A stretch of 40,553 nucleotides of DNA, from positions 1 to 40,553 of the forward strand of contig JACOEH010000044.1 in assembly GCA_024998685.1 (NCBI GenBank), in the 5' to 3' direction. Below are positions 4,924 to 26,013 of the stretch, one piece after another. The notes beneath the pieces are model-generated. The model saw nothing but the letters and a program-made list of their open reading frames with translations. It was not told the DNA's origin and made no database searches. Position 1 is the stretch's first letter. Every line of letters starts with the position of its first letter. Made by a program: the position numbers and the translations under genes. Source of the stretch: Nitrospira sp. Its GTDB lineage: Bacteria; Nitrospirota; Nitrospiria; Nitrospirales; Nitrospiraceae.

Positions 4924-5180
4924 AACGGGGGCGCACCCTAACACGGAGGGCGAGAGTCGGTCAAGAAACTCATGGTTGTGCGATCTGTTCGGATAACGTC
5001 GTGTGAGGTCAAAAAATGTCGTAACAGAGACAGTTTTATGGAGTCAGATACGGTGACAGCTCTAAGGTTCGACTGAAAAGTTGGAGTTCTCTTTATTCTC
5101 ATCCCGCTCGTTGTTGAACGGACGGCGCGATTCTTGCTGTGCGATTCTTCTGATTGCTCGATCATAGAAGCGAGACGCAT

Positions 5181-16722: not shown

Positions 16723-17475
16723 ATGCTTACAACCGGTGAACCAGCGACCAGCTGTCCGAAATGCCATGCCCAACGGCTGGATGAGGCGGAGGAGTGTGGA
16801 AAGTGCGGCATTATTTTTGTCAAATACCGACCGGCTGCCATAACGGCTCGCCATACATCACACCAACCGTCGAGGAGAAAGTCTGAATGGTTGATGACGA
16901 CCAAACGGTGGTTGTTTGAATCGGATACAACGACCAATTCAATGACCTTTTACGGTCGAGCAGCCGTGCTTGCGGCCATGGTGTGGTGGGGGTGGAAGTT
17001 CATCGTCACGCCCCTGGAAACGAACTACACCGGCGAGTCGTTTCTTCATCTGATCAATCTGCCTTTTCATGAAGCCGGACATGTGATGTTCATTCCGTTC
17101 GGTCGTTTCATGACCATCCTGGGAGGAAGCCTCGGCCAGATTCTCATGCCGGTCATCTGTCTCGGGACATTCCTTGTGAAAACGCGCGATCCATTCGGGG
17201 CCTCCGTGTCATTGTGGTGGACGGCTGAGAGTCTGATGGATATCGCGCCGTACATCAACGATGCGCGAGCCCTAGATCTCATGCTGATCGGTGGGGTCAC
17301 CGGGAAGGAGACTGACGGGCATGACTGGAACAACATTCTGACGATGCTGAACTTATTGGAATGGGATCATCGGTTGGCTCACCTCACATACAATCTCGGA
17401 ATTCTTCTGATGCTGGGCGCCTTTCTCTGGGGAGGCGCGCTCTTACTGCGTCACTATCGTCGGCTGTCCACCTAA
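16723..17475 (+). CDS. Zinc-ribbon membrane protein with HEAGH motif
   Basis: From the ATG at 16723 the protein has 250 residues; the frame is open from 16468, but that part is repeat sequence. Residues 11-28 hold a zinc ribbon (CPKC…CGKC). About four membrane helices follow (AAVLAAMVWWGWKFIV, GGSLGQILMPVICLGTFLV, the C-terminal LGILLMLGAFLWGGALLL). In between is LPFHEAGHVMFIPFG, with H116-E117-x-x-H120 in a membrane-proximal helix. HEAGH resembles the catalytic site of M50-like intramembrane proteases, but no NPxDG or similar third-ligand motif is obvious; WTAESLMDIAPY may serve. It stands alone between the R-M island and kdp. Confidence 0.75.
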   Translation: MLTTGEPATSCPKCHAQRLDEAEECGKCGIIFVKYRPAAITARHTSHQPSRRKSEWLMTTKRWLFESDTTTNSMTFYGRAAVLAAMVWWGWKFIVTPLETNYTGESFLHLINLPFHEAGHVMFIPFGRFMTILGGSLGQILMPVICLGTFLVKTRDPFGASVSLWWTAESLMDIAPYINDARALDLMLIGGVTGKETDGHDWNNILTMLNLLEWDHRLAHLTYNLGILLMLGAFLWGGALLLRHYRRLST

Positions 17476-17545
17476 CCTATCTCATTTCATAACGCGCCTC
17501 TTTCCCGCCGATTTTAATCTCTTCTTGACGACGAAGCCGACCATT

Positions 17546-17580
17546 TTGACGCCATTTTTATGGCGCATTTTGTAGAGTGC
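17546..17580 (+). promoter_or_regulatory. Probable kdp promoter region with small hairpin
   Basis: TTGACG at 17546-17551 could be a -35 element; the -10 about 17 bases on is weak. A CGCCAT-TTTT-ATGGCG inverted repeat (17550-17565) overlaps it and could be an operator or the end of the preceding transcript. It lies 24-58 bases before the first kdp peptide start, so it is the natural control region for the operon, presumably through the KdpD-KdpE pair encoded at its far end. Confidence 0.3.
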
Positions 17581-17603
17581 TTTCCAAAGGAGGTAACTTC
17601 CCC

Positions 17604-17693
17604 ATGGAGATAATCATCATCGCGCTGTCGGTCGCGTTCTTTCTGCTCTCCGGTTGGCTGATTTTCGGTTTAGATCGTCTAAGGGAGAAATAA
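17604..17693 (+). CDS. 29-residue membrane peptide at head of kdp operon
   Basis: ATG at 17604 with a strong ribosome binding site (AAAGGAGG). The peptide starts MEIIIIALSVAFFLLSGWLI and ends GLDRLREK: one membrane helix and a charged cytoplasmic tail. The KdpF gene starts two bases after its TAA. It is not KdpF, which is the next peptide and has the typical end. Similar peptides of the pattern (short helix, then LDRLRE) precede kdpF in several other bacteria as far as I recall. It may be a second accessory subunit of the KdpFABC complex. Function unproven. Confidence 0.7.
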   Translation: MEIIIIALSVAFFLLSGWLIFGLDRLREK

Positions 17694-17695
17694 AA

Positions 17696-17785
17696 ATGAA
17701 CGCAATGTACGTGCTGGGCGGAATGGTGTCGGCGGGACTCCTGATCTATCTCGTGGTCGCGTTGCTGAAGGCGGAGTGGTTCTGA
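17696..17785 (+). CDS. kdpF: KdpF, small subunit of the potassium-transporting ATPase
   Basis: 29 residues ending …LIYLVVALLKAEWF; compare E. coli KdpF, which ends YLVYALINAEAF. A single membrane helix stabilises the KdpABC complex in the inner membrane. ATG at 17696, preceded by AAGGGAGA in the previous peptide. Its TGA overlaps the ATG of kdpA by one base. Confidence 0.85.
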   Translation: MNAMYVLGGMVSAGLLIYLVVALLKAEWF

Positions 17786-19539
17786 TGACCATGAATGCCG
17801 TTGTCCAAGTTCTCGTGTTCGTTGGTGTGCTGCTGGCTCTCGTGAAACCACTGGGCTGGTACATGGCGAGGGTCTATGAGGGCAAACCCGTTGGCTTGGA
17901 CTGTCTCCTTGGTCCCGTGGAACGGGCTTTGTATCGACTCTGCGGAGTTCGACCAGACAAGGAGATGAACTGGAAGAACTATGGGGCAGCAATGCTGCTC
18001 TTCAATGCAGTGGGGTTCTTCTTTCTCTATGGCTTGCAGCGTCTGCAGAGTCTTTTGCCCCTCAATCCGGCCAACCTTGGTGGGGTCGCACCCGATCTGG
18101 CTTTCAACACAGCGGCGAGTTTCGTGACCAATACGAACTGGCAAGCGTATGGCGGTGAAACGACGTTGATCTCTCCCACGCAGATGCTCGGCCTGACCGT
18201 GCAAAACTTCGTCTCCGCCGCAACAGGAATGGCAGTGCTCGTTGCGTTGATACGGGGCTTGAGCCGAAATACATCAACGACGCTCGGGAATTTCTGGAGC
18301 GATCTGGCCCGTAGCACACTCTATATTCTTCTGCCGCTTTCTCTGCTTTTATCTCTTCTGTTGGTGTCTCAAGGCGTGGTCCAGACATTTGATTCATATC
18401 AAACAGCGACCCTGCTACAGCCAGTGATGAATGAACAAGGAAACTCCAAAATTAAGCCTACAGAGCAGGTCCTCGCAGTAGGACCTGCCGCTTCCCAGAT
18501 CGCCATCAAGCAACTCGGCACGAACGGCGGCGGTTTTTTTAACGCCAATTCCGCGCATCCGTTCGAAAATCCGACCCCATGCACCAATTTTTTGGAAGTC
18601 CTGGCCATGGTTCTTATCCCTGCCTCACTTTGTTACACCTTCGGCGTGATGGTGGATGATACTCGCCAGGGCTGGGCTCTGCTCATGGCCATGATGATTC
18701 TTCTTCTACCTTTTGTGGCCATCGGACTGTCCGCTGAGCAAAGCGGTAATTCGCTCCTGACTGCTGCGGGAGTCGATCAACTGTCCCAAGCCGGTCAGGC
18801 CGGAGGGAATACGGAAGGGAAGGAGACACGATTCGGCATCACCGGCTCGGCCTTGTGGTCGGTGGTTACAACTGCCGCCTCCAATGGAGCGGTGAATTCC
18901 ATGCACGACTCCTATACGCCGCTGGGCGGACTGGTGCCGCTGTTCCTCATGCAGTTCGGCGAAGTGGTCTTCGGCGGAGTCGGATCTGGGCTGTACGGCA
19001 TGATCGTCTTCGCGATCATCGCAGTGTTTATCTCAGGATTGATGGTCGGACGGACACCGGAATATCTCGGCAAAAAGATCGAGCCCTATGAGATGAAGAT
19101 GGCCGCGCTGCTCATCCTCATCATGCCCATCATCGTCTTAAGCTTCACCGCCCTTGCGATCAGCACTGAAACAGGCCGATCCTCTATCTTTAACCCCGGT
19201 TCTCATGGGTTCAGTGAGATTCTCTACGCCTATACGTCCCAGGGCAACAACAACGGCAGTGCATTTGCCGGGCTCAATGTGAACACTCCCTTTTACAACC
19301 TCACGGGCGGCATTGCGATGTTGATATCCCGCTTCTGGCTGGCTATCTCGATCCTGGCGCTCGCAGGCGCCTTGGCTCGCAAAAAATTGGTGCCGGCCGG
19401 TCCTGGGACTTTGCCGACTCACACCCCGTTGTTCGTGGTGCTCTTGATCAGTGTCGTCGTGATGGTCGGCGCGCTCACGTTTCTACCAGCTCTTGCCTTG
19501 GGGCCGATCGTTGAGGAGCTGATGATAAGGGGATCGTAA
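17785..19539 (+). CDS. kdpA: KdpA, potassium-binding channel subunit
   Basis: 584 residues from the ATG at 17785, normal for KdpA. This subunit carries the K+ selectivity filter within the inner membrane and belongs to the superfamily of potassium transporters (SKT). About ten hydrophobic helices can be seen, with filter loops such as [36 protein letters not shown] and [20 protein letters not shown]-like segments. The third and fourth pore loops are complete ([17 protein letters not shown]). Starting at GTG 17776 would add three residues, but the ATG has GGAG at a suitable distance and overlaps the kdpF stop (TGATG), giving coupling. Confidence 0.97.
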
Positions 19540-19540
19540 G

Positions 19541-21676
19541 GTGCCACACACAATGAGTACGCCGGCAACAGCACACAAGTCCCAGTCTCTTTTCGACGCC
19601 GCAGTGTTGCGCCTGGCGTGCCGCGACGCCGTCGTCAAGCTTGATCCCCGTCATCAAGTCAAGAACCCAGTCATGTTCGTGGTGTGGATAGGAAGTATCT
19701 TGGCGACTCTTCTGTTTTTGCAGGCGATAGCCGGAGCAGGGGAGGCGCCGACTTGGTTCATTTTTGCCATTGCTCTCTGGCTCTGGTTCACCATCCTGTT
19801 TGCCAACTTTGCGGAAGCCATGGCGGAAGGTCGCGGCAAAGCGCAGGCCGATTCGCTCCGGCGTGCGCGCCGGGAACTCACGGCCAAGAGGCTTGGCGCC
19901 GTCAATCCTGGAATCGAGCACTATGCCGTATGGAACCGACAGTTCCAGCGGCGCGATACGTTCAGCGTGGTGTCAGCGAATCAACTCAAGCAAGGAGACG
20001 TATTCCTGGTGGAGGCGGGAGATTTCATCCCCGCCGATGGCGAGATCATAGAAGGCGTGGCCTCGGTGAATGAAAGTGCCATTACCGGCGAAAGCGCACC
20101 CGTCATTCGAGAAAGCGGCGGCGACCGCAGCGCCGTTACGGGAGGCACGAAGATTCTATCCGACTGGCTCATCGTTCGTGTCACAGCCAGTCCAGGAGAA
20201 AGCTTCCTGGATCGAATGATTGCGATGGTAGAAGGAGCTAAGCGCCAGAAAACGCCGAATGAAATCGCTCTGACGATTTTGCTCGCAGCCCTAACGATCA
20301 TTTTCTTGTTGGCCACCGTGACCCTGTTGCCGTTCTCTCTGTATAGCGTGCAAGCCATGGGGCAGGGGACACCGGTCACTGTCACCGTCTTGGTCGCGCT
20401 CTTAGTCTGCCTGATTCCGACCACCGTCGGGGCGCTCCTCTCAGCCATCGGAATTGCCGGCATGGACCGCATGGTGCAAGCCAACGTCATCGCGATGTCG
20501 GGGAAGGCCGTTGAAGCGGCGGGGGACGTGGATGTCCTCCTGCTGGATAAGACCGGCACCATCACGCTCGGGAACCGTCAGGCGACCGCCTTCCTTCCGG
20601 CGGAGGGAGTAGACGCTCAGGCGCTGGCCGACGCCGCCCAACTCTCATCGCTGGCCGACGAGACACCGGAGGGTCGCAGCATCGTCGTCCTGGCCAAAGA
20701 GAAGTATGGACTACGCGCCCGAGACATCCATGAGATGGGCGCCACATTTATGCCCTTTACTGCCCAGACGCGGATGAGCGGGGTCAACCTAGAGAGACGG
20801 CAGATCCGTAAAGGCTCAGCGGATGCAATCGAAGCCTATGTGATTTCGCAGGGAGGACACTTTTCTGAATTTGTCCGGCTGAATGTCGAGACGATTGCGA
20901 GGCAAGGAGGAACGCCCCTAGTGGTGGCTGAAAAGGCTAAGGTATTGGGGGTAATAGCGCTGCATGACATCGTCAAAGGTGGGATTAAGGAACGATTTAT
21001 TGAGCTGCGCCGGATGGGCATCAAGACCGTCATGATCACCGGCGACAACCCGCAAACAGCCGCGGCCGTGGCGGCGGAAGCCGGTGTGGATGATTTCCTT
21101 GCGCAGGCCACCCCGGAAGCCAAGCTCAAATTAATCCGTGATCTTCAATCCGAAGGCCGCCTCGTCGCCATGACCGGAGATGGAACAAACGATGCGCCGG
21201 CCCTGGCGCAGGCTGACGTCGCCGTCGCAATGAACACAGGGACCCAGGCGGCAAAAGAGGCGGGCAACCTGGTCGATCTGGATTCTAACCCTACAAAGCT
21301 CATCGAAATCGTGGAAATCGGCAAACAATTGCTCATGACTCGCGGCGCATTGACGACCTTCAGTATCGCGAACGATGTGGCCAAATACTTCGCAATCATC
21401 CCAGCGGCCTTTGCTACGACCTATCCGGCGCTCAATACACTGAACGTGATGCAATTGGCGACTCCCCAGAGCGCCGTCCTCTCAGCGGTCATCTTCAACG
21501 CGTTGATCATCATCGCGCTCATCCCGCTTGCGCTACGAGGCATCAAGTATCGGCCCATTGGAGCAGAATTGCTGCTGCGGCGGCATCTCCTGATCTATGG
21601 ATTGGGAGGTATGGTGGTGCCCTTCGTCGGCATCAAACTGATCGATATGGTTCTGGTGGCCTTGCATCTTGTTTAA
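19541..21676 (+). CDS. kdpB: KdpB, P-type ATPase catalytic subunit
   Basis: 711 residues from a GTG start (AAGGGG about nine bases upstream; an ATG at 19553 is possible). It hydrolyses ATP and energises K+ uptake through KdpA. The P-type motifs are complete: ITGES (actuator loop; its Ser is the site of inhibitory phosphorylation in E. coli), the phosphorylated D336 in [23 protein letters not shown] (nucleotide binding), [10 protein letters not shown], and [35 protein letters not shown] is the conserved membrane segment near the ion path. Confidence 0.98.
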
Positions 21677-21711: not shown

Positions 21712-22287
21712 ATGAAAGAACAAATAAGACCGGCTCTGACCATGCTGGTGCTTCTGACTGTCTTGACGGGGCTGATTTATCCGCTGGCGGTCACGGGGCT
21801 GGCCCAAGTGTTTTTCTCAGACCAGGCAAACGGCAACTTGATCATGCGCGAAGGCAAGGCGGTCGGGTCCAAGTTGATTGGGCAGTACTTCGACAAACCG
21901 GAGTATTTCTGGGGCCGTCCATCGGCGACTGCGCCGTTTCCCTACAACGCCGCTGCGTCGGGAGGGTCGAACCTCGGTCCTACCAATCCGGCGCTTATCG
22001 AGGCAGTCAAAGCGAGGGTGGCCGCCTTACGAGCCGCAGATCCAGGCAACGATTTGTCTGTACCGGTCGACCTGGTCACCGCTTCGGGAAGCGGGCTGGA
22101 TCCCCACATCAGTCCGGCAGCCGCCCTGTACCAAGCGAAACGAGTAGCCCGTGCGCGAGGCCTGGATGAGGCCATCGTACAAACGCTTATCGTCACGCAT
22201 ACAGAAGAACGCCAATTCGGATTACTAGGAGAACGGAAAGTCAATCTTCTGCAATTGAATCTGGCGCTCGATTCGTTGATTCGCTAA
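21712..22287 (+). CDS. kdpC: KdpC, potassium-transporting ATPase subunit C
   Basis: 191 residues, normal length. One N-terminal membrane helix ([21 protein letters not shown]) and a periplasmic domain with the family blocks [50 protein letters not shown] and [15 protein letters not shown]. KdpC is needed for assembly and activity of the complex. The ribosome binding site is AGGAGA, 6-7 bases before the ATG, 35 bases downstream of kdpB. Confidence 0.97.
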
Positions 22288-22330
22288 GCCAATTCCTCGT
22301 TGAAACACCGGATACTGGAAGAGGTGCTTG

Positions 22331-22459
22331 GTGTTACTGCTCATCTTATTTCTGATTACGCTCTGGGCAATGGCTTTCTTGATCTGGCTGTTGTGGAAAT
22401 GGCTGCCGCCAAGAGACAAGGTGCGCCGCCCTCTTCAAGGTCCCGCCGCCAAGCCATGA
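22331..22459 (+). CDS. 42-residue membrane ORF between kdpC and kdpD
   Basis: From the GTG at 22331 (TTG at 22328 also possible; GGAAGAGG upstream) the peptide is a single strongly hydrophobic segment, VLLLILFLITLWAMAFLIWL, then LWKWLPPRDKVRRPLQGP and a few more residues. The W-rich helix followed by a basic tail has the look of a real inner-membrane peptide, not of noncoding sequence. Its stop overlaps an ATG of another 20-codon frame (ATGA). I know no named family. Its location inside the kdp operon suggests a role with the transporter or with KdpD. Confidence 0.5.
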   Translation: MLLLILFLITLWAMAFLIWLLWKWLPPRDKVRRPLQGPAAKP

Positions 22460-22584: not shown

Positions 22585-25275
22585 ATGGATACGCAACGCC
22601 CGGATCCCGATGCGCTGCTTAAACGTGTACAGGCAGACGAAGCCCGTCGGGTGGAAGGGAAACTGAAGATCTTTTTCGGTGCCAATCCCGGCGTAGGGAA
22701 GACCTATGCGATGTTGGAAGCAGCGCACCAGCAGCGGCACGACGGGGTGGATATTGTCATCGGTATCGTGGAGACGCATGGTCGCGTGGAAACCCAGGCT
22801 TTGGTGAATGGACTGGAGGAGGTTCCGCGTCGTGCGGTGGAGTATCGCGGTACCGTGCTGCAGGAATTCGATCTCGACGCGGCTCTCGCGCGATGTCCCA
22901 CCATCATTCTCATCGACGAACTTGCGCACAGCAACGCGTCGGGTCTGCGCCATACCAAACGATGGCAGGATGTATTGGAATTATTGAAAGCCGGCATCAC
23001 GGTGTACACCACAGTGAATGTACAGCACATAGAAAGCTTGAACGATGTGGTCGCGCAGATTACCGGCGTGCGAGTGCGTGAGACCGTCCCAGACTCCGTA
23101 CTTGAACGCGCGGATGATGTGGAACTGATCGACTTACCGCCCGACGACCTGCTTCAACGGCTCAAAGACGGGAAGGTGTATGTCCCGGAACAGATTCAGC
23201 ATGCGATTCATAATTTCTTCGCCAAAGGCAATCTGATCGCGCTTCGTGAACTCGCCTTGCGCCGTACGGCCGAGCGGGTCGACCAGCAGATGGAGGTTTA
23301 TCGGCGCGACCACGCGGTCGTGCGAACCTGGCCTGCGGCGGAAACCATCATGGTGTGCGTCAACATGAAGTCACGCGGTCCGCGCCTGATCCGGGCTGCG
23401 CGCCAAATGGCGGCGGACCTTCATGCCAAATGGATTGCGGTCTACGTGCAGCTTCCTCGGCATCTTGGCTTGCCGCAATCCGAACGGGATCGCCTGGTAC
23501 AAACACTGAGACTGGCAGAGCAGCTTGGGGCCGAAACCGTCACGCTCAGCGGCGAGAACGTCGCCCAGGAACTCTTGAATTACGCGCGGAGCCGAAACGC
23601 GACGAAGATTATTGTCGGGAAACCGGTCAGGTCTTGGTGGAAGGAATGGGTGTTTGGGTCGGTCGTCTCGGAACTCGTCCATCAAAGCGGAGAGATCGAT
23701 ATCTACGTCATTACGGGAGCGGCCGGTGAGGGGCAACCGCTGGTGCGCCGTACCCTCCGAAGTACCGGCGATCCCTCAGGATATGCCTACGCCTTGGCAG
23801 GAGTATTGATTGCGACGGCGGTCGATTGGTTGATGTTTCCCTACTTCGCGACGGCGAATTTGATCATGATGTATCTGATCGCCGTCGTCGCCGTTGCGAT
23901 CGGCTGGGGGCGCGGACCATCGGTCGCGGCTTCCGTCCTGAGCGTGGCGACGTTCGATTTCTTTTTCGCCCCGCCGCATTTTTCCTTTGCCGTCTCCGAT
24001 ATCCAATATCTATTGACCTTCGGCGTGATGCTGGCGGTGGCTTTGGTCATCAGCAACCTCGCCGTGCGGCTCCAACAGCAAGCCGAGCTGGCGCGCTACC
24101 GAGAAAGACGCACGGGAGTGCTTTATGCCATGAGTCGAGATCTCGCCATCCATCGTGGAACCGGCATGCTGGCGCAACTCGCAGTCAAGCATCTCCGTAA
24201 CGCGTTTGACGCTCAAGTTGCCGTCTTCCTCGCGGATGCGGACAAACGAGTGCAGCTGCAACGCGGGGAACTCCTGTTTTTTGAGTTGGACCCAAAGGAG
24301 ACGGGTGTGGCTCAATGGGTATTCGACCACAATGAGCGAGCCGGGCTCGGGACCGATACGCTGCCGGGAGCCAGTGCGCTGTACCTGCCCTTGGTCGGAT
24401 CATCCGGAGCGATCGGGGTTGTCGCAGTCCGGCCACAAGACCTAGGACTCTTACTTGACCCCGAGCAACTTCACTTGCTCGAATCTCTGGTGAATCAGGT
24501 GGCCTTGGCGATCGAACGGACTCGTTTATCCGATGAAGCTCAACAGGCCCATGTGCGGGCGGAAACGGAGCGCATGCGGAATGCTATTCTCAGTTCGGTG
24601 TCTCACGACCTGCGAACGCCGCTCGCTACCATCAGCGGCGCCGCCAGCAGTTTGGCGGAAGACGAGCTGAATGCCGCTGCTCGGAAGGATCTCGCTCGAT
24701 CCATCTGTCGAGAGGCTGATCGTCTGGACCGTTTGCTGAAGAACCTGCTCGACATGATGCGCATTGAGGCAGGAGCGGTGCAGCTCAGCAGGGAGTGGCA
24801 TCCAATTGATGAAGTAGCCGGTGCGGCACTCGCTAGATTGGAGGGACGATTGCACGACCATACCGTCAATACGAGTTTTCCGGCTGATCTGCCGCTGATA
24901 TTTGTCGACGGAGTGCTCTTGGAACAGGTAATGATTAATCTTGTTGAGAACGCTGTAAAGTATACCCCGCCGGGAAGCACGATTGATCTGTCTGCGTCGG
25001 CTGACGATCACCAAGTCATCGTCGAGGTTGCCGATCGTGGAGTGGGAATCCCTTCCGGGGAGGAATCCCGTATCTTCGATAAGTTCTATCGCGATAAAAC
25101 TGCAGGAGAAGGGGGAGTCGGCCTCGGGTTGACTATTTGTCGCGGGATTGTGGAAGCGCATGGCGGCCGCATTTGGGCGGAGAACCGGTCGGGGGGCGGT
25201 GCCATATTTCGGTTCACCATTCCGCTACCGGAGACGCAGCCGGCCGTCGAAATGGAGCAAGCAGAAGTTCGGTGA
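22585..25275 (+). CDS. kdpD: KdpD, potassium-responsive sensor histidine kinase
   Basis: 896 residues from the ATG at 22585, matching the usual KdpD length. Order of domains: KdpD N-terminal domain with Walker A GANPGVGKT (residues 32-40) and the Walker-B-like ILIDELAHSN; USP-like domain (about 245-365, KIIVGKPVRSWWKEW); four membrane helices (about 395-495, containing FFFAPPHFSFAV); GAF-type region; phosphoacceptor His in SSVSHDLRTPLATISG; then NLVENAVKYTPPG (N box), DRGVGIP (G1) and GVGLGLTICRGIVEAHGG (G2). It senses K+ limitation and passes phosphate to KdpE, 45 bases downstream. Confidence 0.97.
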   Translation: MDTQRPDPDALLKRVQADEARRVEGKLKIFFGANPGVGKTYAMLEAAHQQRHDGVDIVIGIVETHGRVETQALVNGLEEVPRRAVEYRGTVLQEFDLDAALARCPTIILIDELAHSNASGLRHTKRWQDVLELLKAGITVYTTVNVQHIESLNDVVAQITGVRVRETVPDSVLERADDVELIDLPPDDLLQRLKDGKVYVPEQIQHAIHNFFAKGNLIALRELALRRTAERVDQQMEVYRRDHAVVRTWPAAETIMVCVNMKSRGPRLIRAARQMAADLHAKWIAVYVQLPRHLGLPQSERDRLVQTLRLAEQLGAETVTLSGENVAQELLNYARSRNATKIIVGKPVRSWWKEWVFGSVVSELVHQSGEIDIYVITGAAGEGQPLVRRTLRSTGDPSGYAYALAGVLIATAVDWLMFPYFATANLIMMYLIAVVAVAIGWGRGPSVAASVLSVATFDFFFAPPHFSFAVSDIQYLLTFGVMLAVALVISNLAVRLQQQAELARYRERRTGVLYAMSRDLAIHRGTGMLAQLAVKHLRNAFDAQVAVFLADADKRVQLQRGELLFFELDPKETGVAQWVFDHNERAGLGTDTLPGASALYLPLVGSSGAIGVVAVRPQDLGLLLDPEQLHLLESLVNQVALAIERTRLSDEAQQAHVRAETERMRNAILSSVSHDLRTPLATISGAASSLAEDELNAAARKDLARSICREADRLDRLLKNLLDMMRIEAGAVQLSREWHPIDEVAGAALARLEGRLHDHTVNTSFPADLPLIFVDGVLLEQVMINLVENAVKYTPPGSTIDLSASADDHQVIVEVADRGVGIPSGEESRIFDKFYRDKTAGEGGVGLGLTICRGIVEAHGGRIWAENRSGGGAIFRFTIPLPETQPAVEMEQAEVR

Positions 25276-25320: not shown

Positions 25321-26013
25321 ATGTCACAGGATTTAACTTTACTCTTGATCGAAGACGAGCCGGAAATTCGTCGGTTTCTCAGGACAACCTTGCCCGCACA
25401 TGGTTTCCGGCTCCATGAAGCCGTGACCGGCAAGGATGGGCTCACAGAAGCTAAAGCAAGGAATCCGGATCTCGTCTTGCTGGACTTAGGACTACCCGAT
25501 CTCGAAGGAAACGAGGTGATTCGCCAGATAAGGGAATGGACCACTATGCCCATCATCGTACTGTCTGCTCGTGACCAGGAGCAGGCGAAAGTCGCGGCGC
25601 TCGATCTCGGCGCCGATGACTATATCACGAAGCCGTTCGGAGTGAACGAACTCATAGCACGGATGCGAGCGGCACTTCGCCATGCTTCTCGACCTGTTGA
25701 CGGCGGCGAATCGGTGTTTGTGCTCGGTGATCTGAAGGTGGATATCGATCGGCGGCAGGTGTTTGTTTCAGAGAAGGAAGTTCACCTCACACCGATCGAA
25801 TACAAGCTGCTCACGACGTTGATCCGATATGCAGGCAGGGTGATGACGCACCGGCAACTGTTAAAAGAGGTCTGGGGGCCGCTTCATGTGGATGAAGGGC
25901 ACTACCTGCGGGTCTATATGCGCCAATTGAGAAATAAATTGGAACGCAATCCGGCGCATCCCCGTTATCTTATGACAGAGCTGGGAGTCGGGTATCGGCT
26001 TCGGACAGAATGA
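25321..26013 (+). CDS. kdpE: KdpE, OmpR-family response regulator
   Basis: 230 residues. Receiver domain 1-120 with acidic pair E11-D12, phosphoacceptor D55 (LVLLDLGLPD) and K105-type lysine in DDYITKPFG. A winged-helix DNA-binding domain follows (about 130-230; LTPIEYKLLTTLIRYAGRVM, HYLRVYMRQLRNKLE). The last gene of the kdp operon; it would activate the kdp promoter upstream of the 29-residue peptide gene. Confidence 0.97.
   Translation: MSQDLTLLLIEDEPEIRRFLRTTLPAHGFRLHEAVTGKDGLTEAKARNPDLVLLDLGLPDLEGNEVIRQIREWTTMPIIVLSARDQEQAKVAALDLGADDYITKPFGVNELIARMRAALRHASRPVDGGESVFVLGDLKVDIDRRQVFVSEKEVHLTPIEYKLLTTLIRYAGRVMTHRQLLKEVWGPLHVDEGHYLRVYMRQLRNKLERNPAHPRYLMTELGVGYRLRTE

Follow-up and report, generated by a model that had tools for sequence, protein, structure and literature searches.

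The kdp operon in the window, by which we mean the whole 40,553 nt stretch of Nitrospira DNA analysed here, opens with two small membrane peptide genes, and the question it raises is what the first of these (ORF1) is, and what it could do for a potassium pump which already has a KdpF (Table 1). The two successive 29-codon peptides ahead of kdpA described in the initial annotation were both confirmed as frames in the window, with the ORF1 stop codon separated by 2 nt from the start of kdpF (product MNAMYVLGGMVSAGLLIYLVVALLKAEWF). As had also been stated there, KdpF identity is limited to the second peptide, PF09604 and TIGR02115 matching kdpF, while ORF1 has no family above cut-off, and the ribosome binding site of ORF1 (AAAGGAGGT) is stronger than that of kdpF (AAGGGAGA), which sits within the 3' end of ORF1. 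The closest KdpA with an organism name comes from a Nitrospira MAG, and is 76% identical to the KdpA of the window.

Table 1. Position of the kdp genes and of the signals preceding them in the window
Feature	Position	Strand	Evidence
KdpE-like direct repeat, TTTTGACGC-CA-TTTTTATGG, 11-nt period	17544..17563	+	By eye and pattern search
Possible -10 element, TAGAGT	17573..17578	+	Conserved T-A pair and later T in aligned upstream regions
Shine-Dalgarno sequence of ORF1, AAAGGAGGT	17586..17594	+	Sequence; 9 nt 5' of the ATG
ORF1, 29-aa single-helix peptide	17604..17693	+	ATG 17604 to TAA 17693; product MEIIIIALSVAFFLLSGWLIFGLDRLREK
kdpF, 29 aa	17696..17785	+	ATG 17696, TGA 17785; PF09604 E 5.7e-7, TIGR02115 E 4.1e-8
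kdpA	17785..19539	+	PF03814 E 5.5e-243; ATG overlaps kdpF stop by one base
kdpB reading frame	19541..21676	+	ORF list; assigned from position and visible DKTGT motif
kdpC	21712..22287	+	PF02669 E 6.6e-78
kdpD, full-length sensor kinase	22588..25275	+	PF02702 E 2.6e-98 and kinase domains (frame from 22546)
kdpE, response regulator	25321..26013	+	Response_reg, Trans_reg_C; best NCBIfam NF007820 (KdpE) E 9.9e-85, at 283.5 bits under that model's cut-off of 325

Short hydrophobic ORFs were first read upstream of 102 kdpA loci (L002-L103, including that of the window), and a similarly built peptide was recurrently found before kdpF; profiles were iterated after this reading and the search was expanded to 261 deduplicated kdpA loci. 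Members of the ORF1 family were detected in 194 of these (E<0.05) and kdpF in 242, with the ORF1 family spanning nine bacterial phyla. The peptide was present in 55/62 loci of the Gammaproteobacteria including Burkholderiales (a group which also takes in loci with organism names that fit no other group), 48/59 of the Nitrospirota, 23/32 of the Acidobacteriota, 30/31 of the Chloroflexota, 21/22 of the Alphaproteobacteria, 7/18 of the Bacillota set (the phylum of a Limnochordaceae genome), 5/6 of the Actinomycetota, 3/4 of the Planctomycetota, 1/2 of the Deinococcota and 1/1 of the Verrucomicrobiota, where group labels are our own, from record titles or the clade requested, and where close relatives inflate the counts, the 80 loci with organism names being those nearest to the KdpA of the window. 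The profile did not match any of 16 archaeal kdpA loci, any of a panel of three enterobacteria and Moraxella (0/4), or the single loci from Armatimonadota, Lactobacillales, Cyanobacteriota and an unclassified bacterium (0/1 each), and ORF1 was missing by profile in 11/18 Bacillota-set and 9/32 Acidobacteriota loci. A total of 50 loci contain kdpF without an ORF1 profile match, among them that of E. coli K-12, where no ORF1-type frame precedes kdpF. The initial annotation had proposed a conservation survey as the check on ORF1, and a lack of conservation beyond this strain as the outcome that would count against it; the family instead spans several phyla and is linked to kdp operons, which clearly rejects such confinement to one strain.

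Controls with the reverse strand and the reversed sequence of 260 of the surveyed regions gave a best E of only 0.28. Some of the loci counted had also served to train the calling profiles, and a profile free of Nitrospirota (146 sequences) is the cleaner test for the window: among all 1358 stretches given by its six frames, ORF1 was the sole significant match (E 5.5e-10, next-best stretch 0.11), and this profile recovered 45 of the 59 Nitrospirota loci. On the survey, the controls and this profile, a strain-specific or spurious ORF was rejected; ORF1 represents a genuine and conserved microprotein family dedicated to kdp. Counting was restricted to members with E<0.05, by which L033, L039 and L124 were scored as missing (L012, L032, L033 and L039 had first been placed by position), and since look-alikes were recognised by eye at about ten of the 67 loci scored as missing (L033, L039, L114, L124, L159, L161, L166, L234, L284 and L285), 194 is a low-side count. 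Dropped before counting were three loci at contig edges (L006, L052, L263), seven duplicates, four loci that a search with ORF1 had contributed (L104-L107) and six where the kdpA match was weak or started beyond residue 60 (L101, L112, L136, L218, L237, L256); L238-L240 and L253 had no kdpA match. Two loci within the 194, L153 and L154, entered via their ORF1 match and are not unbiased draws, the latter having been set aside initially and added by hand for its swapped gene order.

The link to kdp is equally apparent at the level of genomes. Among 98 Nitrospirales genomes, the 19 with a full-length kdpA are exactly the 19 with an ORF1 match (E<=2.1e-4), and the other 79, one of which contains a kdpA fragment, gave no match below 0.01. 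In a set of 30 genomes, taken from the loci with organism names, all 25 ORF1 matches at E<0.01 were located at kdp operons, 23 by coordinates and two, seemingly unlinked, at the second kdp operon of their genome. Similarly, in 56 genomes or plasmid records that carry kdp but gave no match at the surveyed operon, no stand-alone copy was found elsewhere (E<0.01), the two matches below 0.01 both lying inside long frames. Within the operons kdpF is present in 192/194 ORF1 loci (no kdpF was found at L039 and L215), and ORF1 is upstream of kdpF in 191 of these 192, the one other arrangement being kdpF-ORF1-kdpA in the second kdp operon of an Oryzomicrobium genome (L154). The two genes overlap by 4 nt in 73/192 loci and by 4 or 1 nt in 79/192; their distance is between -8 and +30 nt in 170/192 and exceeds 100 nt in five loci. 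Fusions of ORF1 with KdpF or KdpA were not found. The second kdpA copies of three Nitrospirota genomes (L102, L103 and L155 in G017, G030 and G253) are without both kdpF and ORF1, and thus the two small genes seem to go together. On a FastTree phylogeny of KdpA (258 rows) the presence of ORF1 requires at least 27 state changes, 19 of them forced by well-supported branches, versus 59 with shuffled labels; the distribution is clustered, with repeated loss or gain, which are not told apart on this tree, with its long branches and without a fixed root.

The family is described by the motif MDx9FFx9C[DE][RK]L in a peptide of 24-40 residues (194 members), most of 26-35, with one helix, hydropathy having been computed for a subset of the surveyed loci. 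In the aligned members (157-194 sequences per column) D2 is found in 96% (otherwise E), F13 in 74%, C23 in 59% (L in 28%), D or E at position 24 in 75%, R or K at position 25 in 83% and L26 in 90%. The charged LDRLREK tail to which the initial annotation had drawn attention is therefore conserved in its [DE][RK]L part, but the final REK differs among relatives, and neither REK nor the strong ribosome binding site characterises the family. The first six residues contain 188 D/E versus a single K/R, and the residues from 21 onward 363 K/R versus 197 D/E, and with this acidic N-terminus and basic C-terminus the positive-inside rule gives a topology that is probably N-out/C-in. No conserved helix face was detected (p 0.41). 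The dN/dS of ORF1 is 0.26 in Nitrospira, 0.26 in Burkholderia, 0.43 in Methylobacterium, 0.23 in Rhizobiales and 0.51 in a Chloroflexota group, compared with 0.06-0.29 for kdpF in the same five sets, and ORF1 evolves faster in all five; hence ORF1 is selected as a protein, albeit less tightly than kdpF.

With regard to known families, ORF1 had no match above cut-off in Pfam or NCBIfam (the best was DUF7027, with 14.6 bits versus a cut-off of 27), and its profile did not match any PDB chain (best E 0.29). A single KdpF sequence found nothing in the PDB either, hence the control was run with a KdpF profile of 16 rows, which detected KdpF chains at 9.5e-8, with two distinct sequences, presumably those of E. 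coli. When 59 family members were searched against Pfam the best match was PetM (3.4e-4), together with 17 weaker families, each matched by at most two members, and against NCBIfam it was DUF1146 (0.0063), with no family having more than two members; for a set of 78 members the Pfam bPrPp N-terminal family (0.0041) was the sole match, and in NCBIfam DUF1146 was again the sole match. These scattered weak matches were taken as chance. None of the KdpF models matched any of the 59 (E<=1) or 78 (E<=0.01) members. The gene is mostly absent from annotation: 157 plasmid records had a match, and of the 40 that were listed 32 had no feature at the gene, seven no annotation and one a hypothetical protein, the latter with a longer start, although the gene table behind these counts is incomplete. 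One Mycetohabitans copy is labelled as a potassium ABC transporter ATPase, and a plasmid search with a Burkholderia member as query gave no match. No description of the family was found in open-licence papers, a scope in which an account in a subscription journal could be missed.

The region upstream of ORF1 contains a direct repeat (Table 1) which we take to resemble the E. coli KdpE box, and which is perhaps the activator site of the operon for KdpE. Its pattern occurs once in the window (17544), and by eye the repeat (TTTTGAC.CC.TTTTTA) is seen in 22 of the 25 upstream regions aligned from Nitrospira relatives, L095, L144 and L146 not having it at that position. In Nitrospirota the pattern was found ahead of ORF1 (within 260 nt) in 24/48 loci with ORF1, and in no case between ORF1 and kdpF; outside Nitrospirota it precedes ORF1 in 3/146 loci. 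As the repeat stands upstream of ORF1, this is most likely the first gene of a KdpE-controlled transcript. A scan of positions 17400-17800 with the sigma-70 consensus gave no promoter, and the -10 element of Table 1 is only a possible one. No Rfam family matched positions 17300-18000 at E up to 1, by which a known RNA element was rejected. A single terminator-like hairpin (17550-17565), which falls inside the KdpE-like repeat, precedes ORF1, and by eye it is not a general feature of the relatives. One study (PMC8552747) reports that in Caulobacter kdpF is preceded by a structured 5' UTR of about 100 nt, and this may be a place where an ORF1-type frame could be sought.

With the gene, its family, its conservation, its linkage to kdp, its overlap with kdpF and its purifying selection established, the function is judged from comparative features, and linkage alone is compatible with a subunit and a regulator alike. 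The extra KdpFABC subunit or regulator put forward in the initial annotation fits the linkage, the overlap with kdpF, the purifying selection and the persistence without a membrane-bound KdpD, with binding and an effect on transport as its conjectural part. We favour, with a probability of roughly 60%, that ORF1 encodes a dedicated accessory subunit of the Kdp pump, distinct from KdpF, which would bind the complex. ORF1 would head an orf1-kdpF-kdpA-kdpB-kdpC-kdpD-kdpE operon, probably controlled by KdpE; its peptide would be made together with KdpF, often through overlapping genes, would insert such that the acidic N-terminus points outwards and the C[DE][RK]L end lies on the cytoplasmic side, and most likely would pack beside KdpF, KdpA or KdpB, stabilising or tuning the pump as E. 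coli KdpF does. Like the single-helix accessory peptides of P-type ATPases, it is smaller than about 50 aa, has one hydrophobic helix and is genetically linked to the pump. Since 50 loci have kdpF without an ORF1 profile match, ORF1 is dispensable in principle, and the purified E. coli KdpFABC is reported as active (PMC11018627). Within the subunit reading a structural role is somewhat more likely than a conditional one. A peptide which binds KdpA or KdpB under some condition only, and then alters activity or turnover of the pump, seems unlikely to us: its size, single helix and faster evolution than kdpF would suit a tunable accessory, as would the scattered absences behind the 27 or more state changes on the KdpA tree and the analogy with sarcolipin and FXYD for animal pumps and MgtS for MgtA, but ORF1 lies beside or overlaps kdpF and is therefore probably made whenever the pump is made, and the KdpE-like repeat, which was never found between the two genes in Nitrospirota, also counts against such a regulator.

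The other explanations fare less well than an accessory subunit. It is improbable that the peptide contacts the membrane domain of KdpD and shapes potassium sensing, as MgrB and SafA do with PhoQ. A KdpD match was present in 77 of the 80 kdp-bearing genomes searched, and binding to KdpD in a two-hybrid test is reported for Mycobacterium bovis BCG KdpF (PMC3618439), but ORF1 is present in 16 of the 18 genomes (of the 80) where the single KdpD match lies in a frame of less than 560 aa (the exceptions being G659 and G694), and in two of the three genomes without any KdpD match, one of the two being only 80% complete. Thirteen of the 16 were read (12 Chloroflexota and one Acidobacteriota, chosen among ORF1-bearing genomes), and here the KdpD frame of 389-545 aa contains neither a hydrophobic helix nor a kinase part; PMC11018627 describes such short KdpDs as pump inhibitors. 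Conversely, ORF1 is missing in several Bacillota genomes whose KdpD frame is about 900 aa long, and at the E. coli operon. As ORF1 persists with a short or absent KdpD, a partner of its membrane domain is unlikely, and this was rejected as the main role on the genomes with a soluble KdpD or none. Improbable, too, is a translated leader which would mainly bring in ribosomes and link kdpF and kdpA in their translation, the peptide itself being inert. Its position upstream of kdpF in nearly all loci, the frequent 4-nt overlap and the strong ribosome binding site in the window would agree with this, as would four consecutive isoleucine codons in the window copy, although the run is not kept in relatives; a mere leader would not explain the kdpF-ORF1-kdpA order in L154, however, nor is it expected to have residue-level conservation across phyla (D2, L26), dN/dS below 1 in five groups, distances of more than 100 nt in five loci, or no Rfam element nearby. 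ORF1 does not show the features of an attenuator leader (codon run, RNA element, conserved terminator), and this variant was rejected on the L154 order, the dN/dS, the residue conservation and the distances. We give least credence to a diverged second KdpF. The likeness to KdpF (PF09604, TIGR02115) consists of a length of about 29 aa, one helix, a place at the head of the kdp operon and overlapping genes, whereas the ORF1 motif differs from Y[LIV]..AL..PE.F of KdpF, with both peptides present side by side in 192/194 ORF1 loci. The slot directly before or overlapping kdpA is held by kdpF in the window, with ORF1 one gene further up, and a comparison of ORF1 with KdpF profiles by hhalign gave a probability of 1.4% and E 0.037 over one column; without a PF09604 or TIGR02115 match or a profile relationship, ORF1 as a second KdpF was rejected.

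The arrangement of ORF1 and kdpF has a probable precedent. In Clostridium acetobutylicum, Treuner-Lange reportedly described in 1997 two small ORFs before kdpA, kdpZ and kdpY, coding for hydrophobic peptides, and kdpZ is said to have been described in Alicyclobacillus acidocaldarius by Schleussinger in 2006; to our knowledge kdpZ and kdpY were described in single species, and not as a family. The likeness lies in the two small ORFs for hydrophobic peptides before kdpA, and kdpZ may represent the ORF1 family in Bacillota. MgtS acts on MgtA, and MgrB and SafA act on PhoQ. The operon name kdpZYABCXDE is cited for C. acetobutylicum (PMC5401905), the Schleussinger 2006 paper on A. acidocaldarius appears in a reference list (PMC3035248), and small membrane peptides acting on a membrane protein are described for bacteria with MgrB and SafA (PMC3618439) and MgtR (PMC6813294). 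MgrB, SafA and MgtR differ from ORF1 in having other targets, ORF1 being linked to kdp and showing no dependence on a membrane-bound KdpD. Small single-helix peptides, i.e. sarcolipin/phospholamban and FXYD, associate with animal P-type ATPases (PMC10654040), and they share the small single helix with ORF1, albeit with other pumps and hosts, and with an association which for ORF1 is presumed.

KdpFABC serves as a model both of high-affinity uptake of potassium and of transport by a channel-pump hybrid, and a kdp-linked peptide absent from the E. coli operon could be a component that was missed in structures and mostly in annotation. A fifth subunit is plausible from the comparative data, and we tentatively consider, at somewhat less than even odds, that in many bacteria the Kdp pump has five subunits, with the fifth, single-helix subunit absent from the operon of the lineage in which the structures were solved. 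The textbook pump may then be without a partner that many other bacteria have, and if the five-subunit reading is true, pump stability, regulation or coupling would depart from the textbook in many other phyla. The ORF1 profile could let annotators name the gene.

Finally, several other small or unusual frames were seen at kdp loci. Six Acidobacteriota loci without ORF1 (L273, L276, L277, L279, L283 and L286) contain another, longer hydrophobic ORF before kdpF, of about 48-60 aa and with perhaps two helices. In the Deinococcus sp. D7000 plasmid (L114, 1368-1454) a single-helix peptide, MPGVLLGLLILLVLFGVAAWALKLPDNL, follows kdpF and ends just before the annotated kdpA, and may be a diverged, order-swapped member of the ORF1 family. 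Plasmid pACRY03 of Acidiphilium cryptum (L120) has a 46-aa hydrophobic 'hypothetical protein' (1276-1416) in the gap between kdpF and kdpA, with the ORF1 homologue further upstream, and a Phyllobacterium zundukense plasmid (L108) an annotated 55-aa hypothetical protein (4936-5103) between kdpA and kdpB. In five archaeal loci (L241-L244 and L254) KdpA is found in open frames of 806-845 aa, much above its usual length and perhaps a fusion to another Kdp subunit. The window itself contains a third small membrane ORF of 43 aa, MVLLLILFLITLWAMAFLIWLLWKWLPPRDKVRRPLQGPAAKP, between kdpC and kdpD (22328-22459, + strand), which had no match in Pfam and NCBIfam scans. Similar ORFs were found in three of 20 fetched Nitrospirota regions, some of which do not span the gap, and also precede the second kdpA copies in L102 and L103, which like that of L155 lie a few kb away from the first copy.
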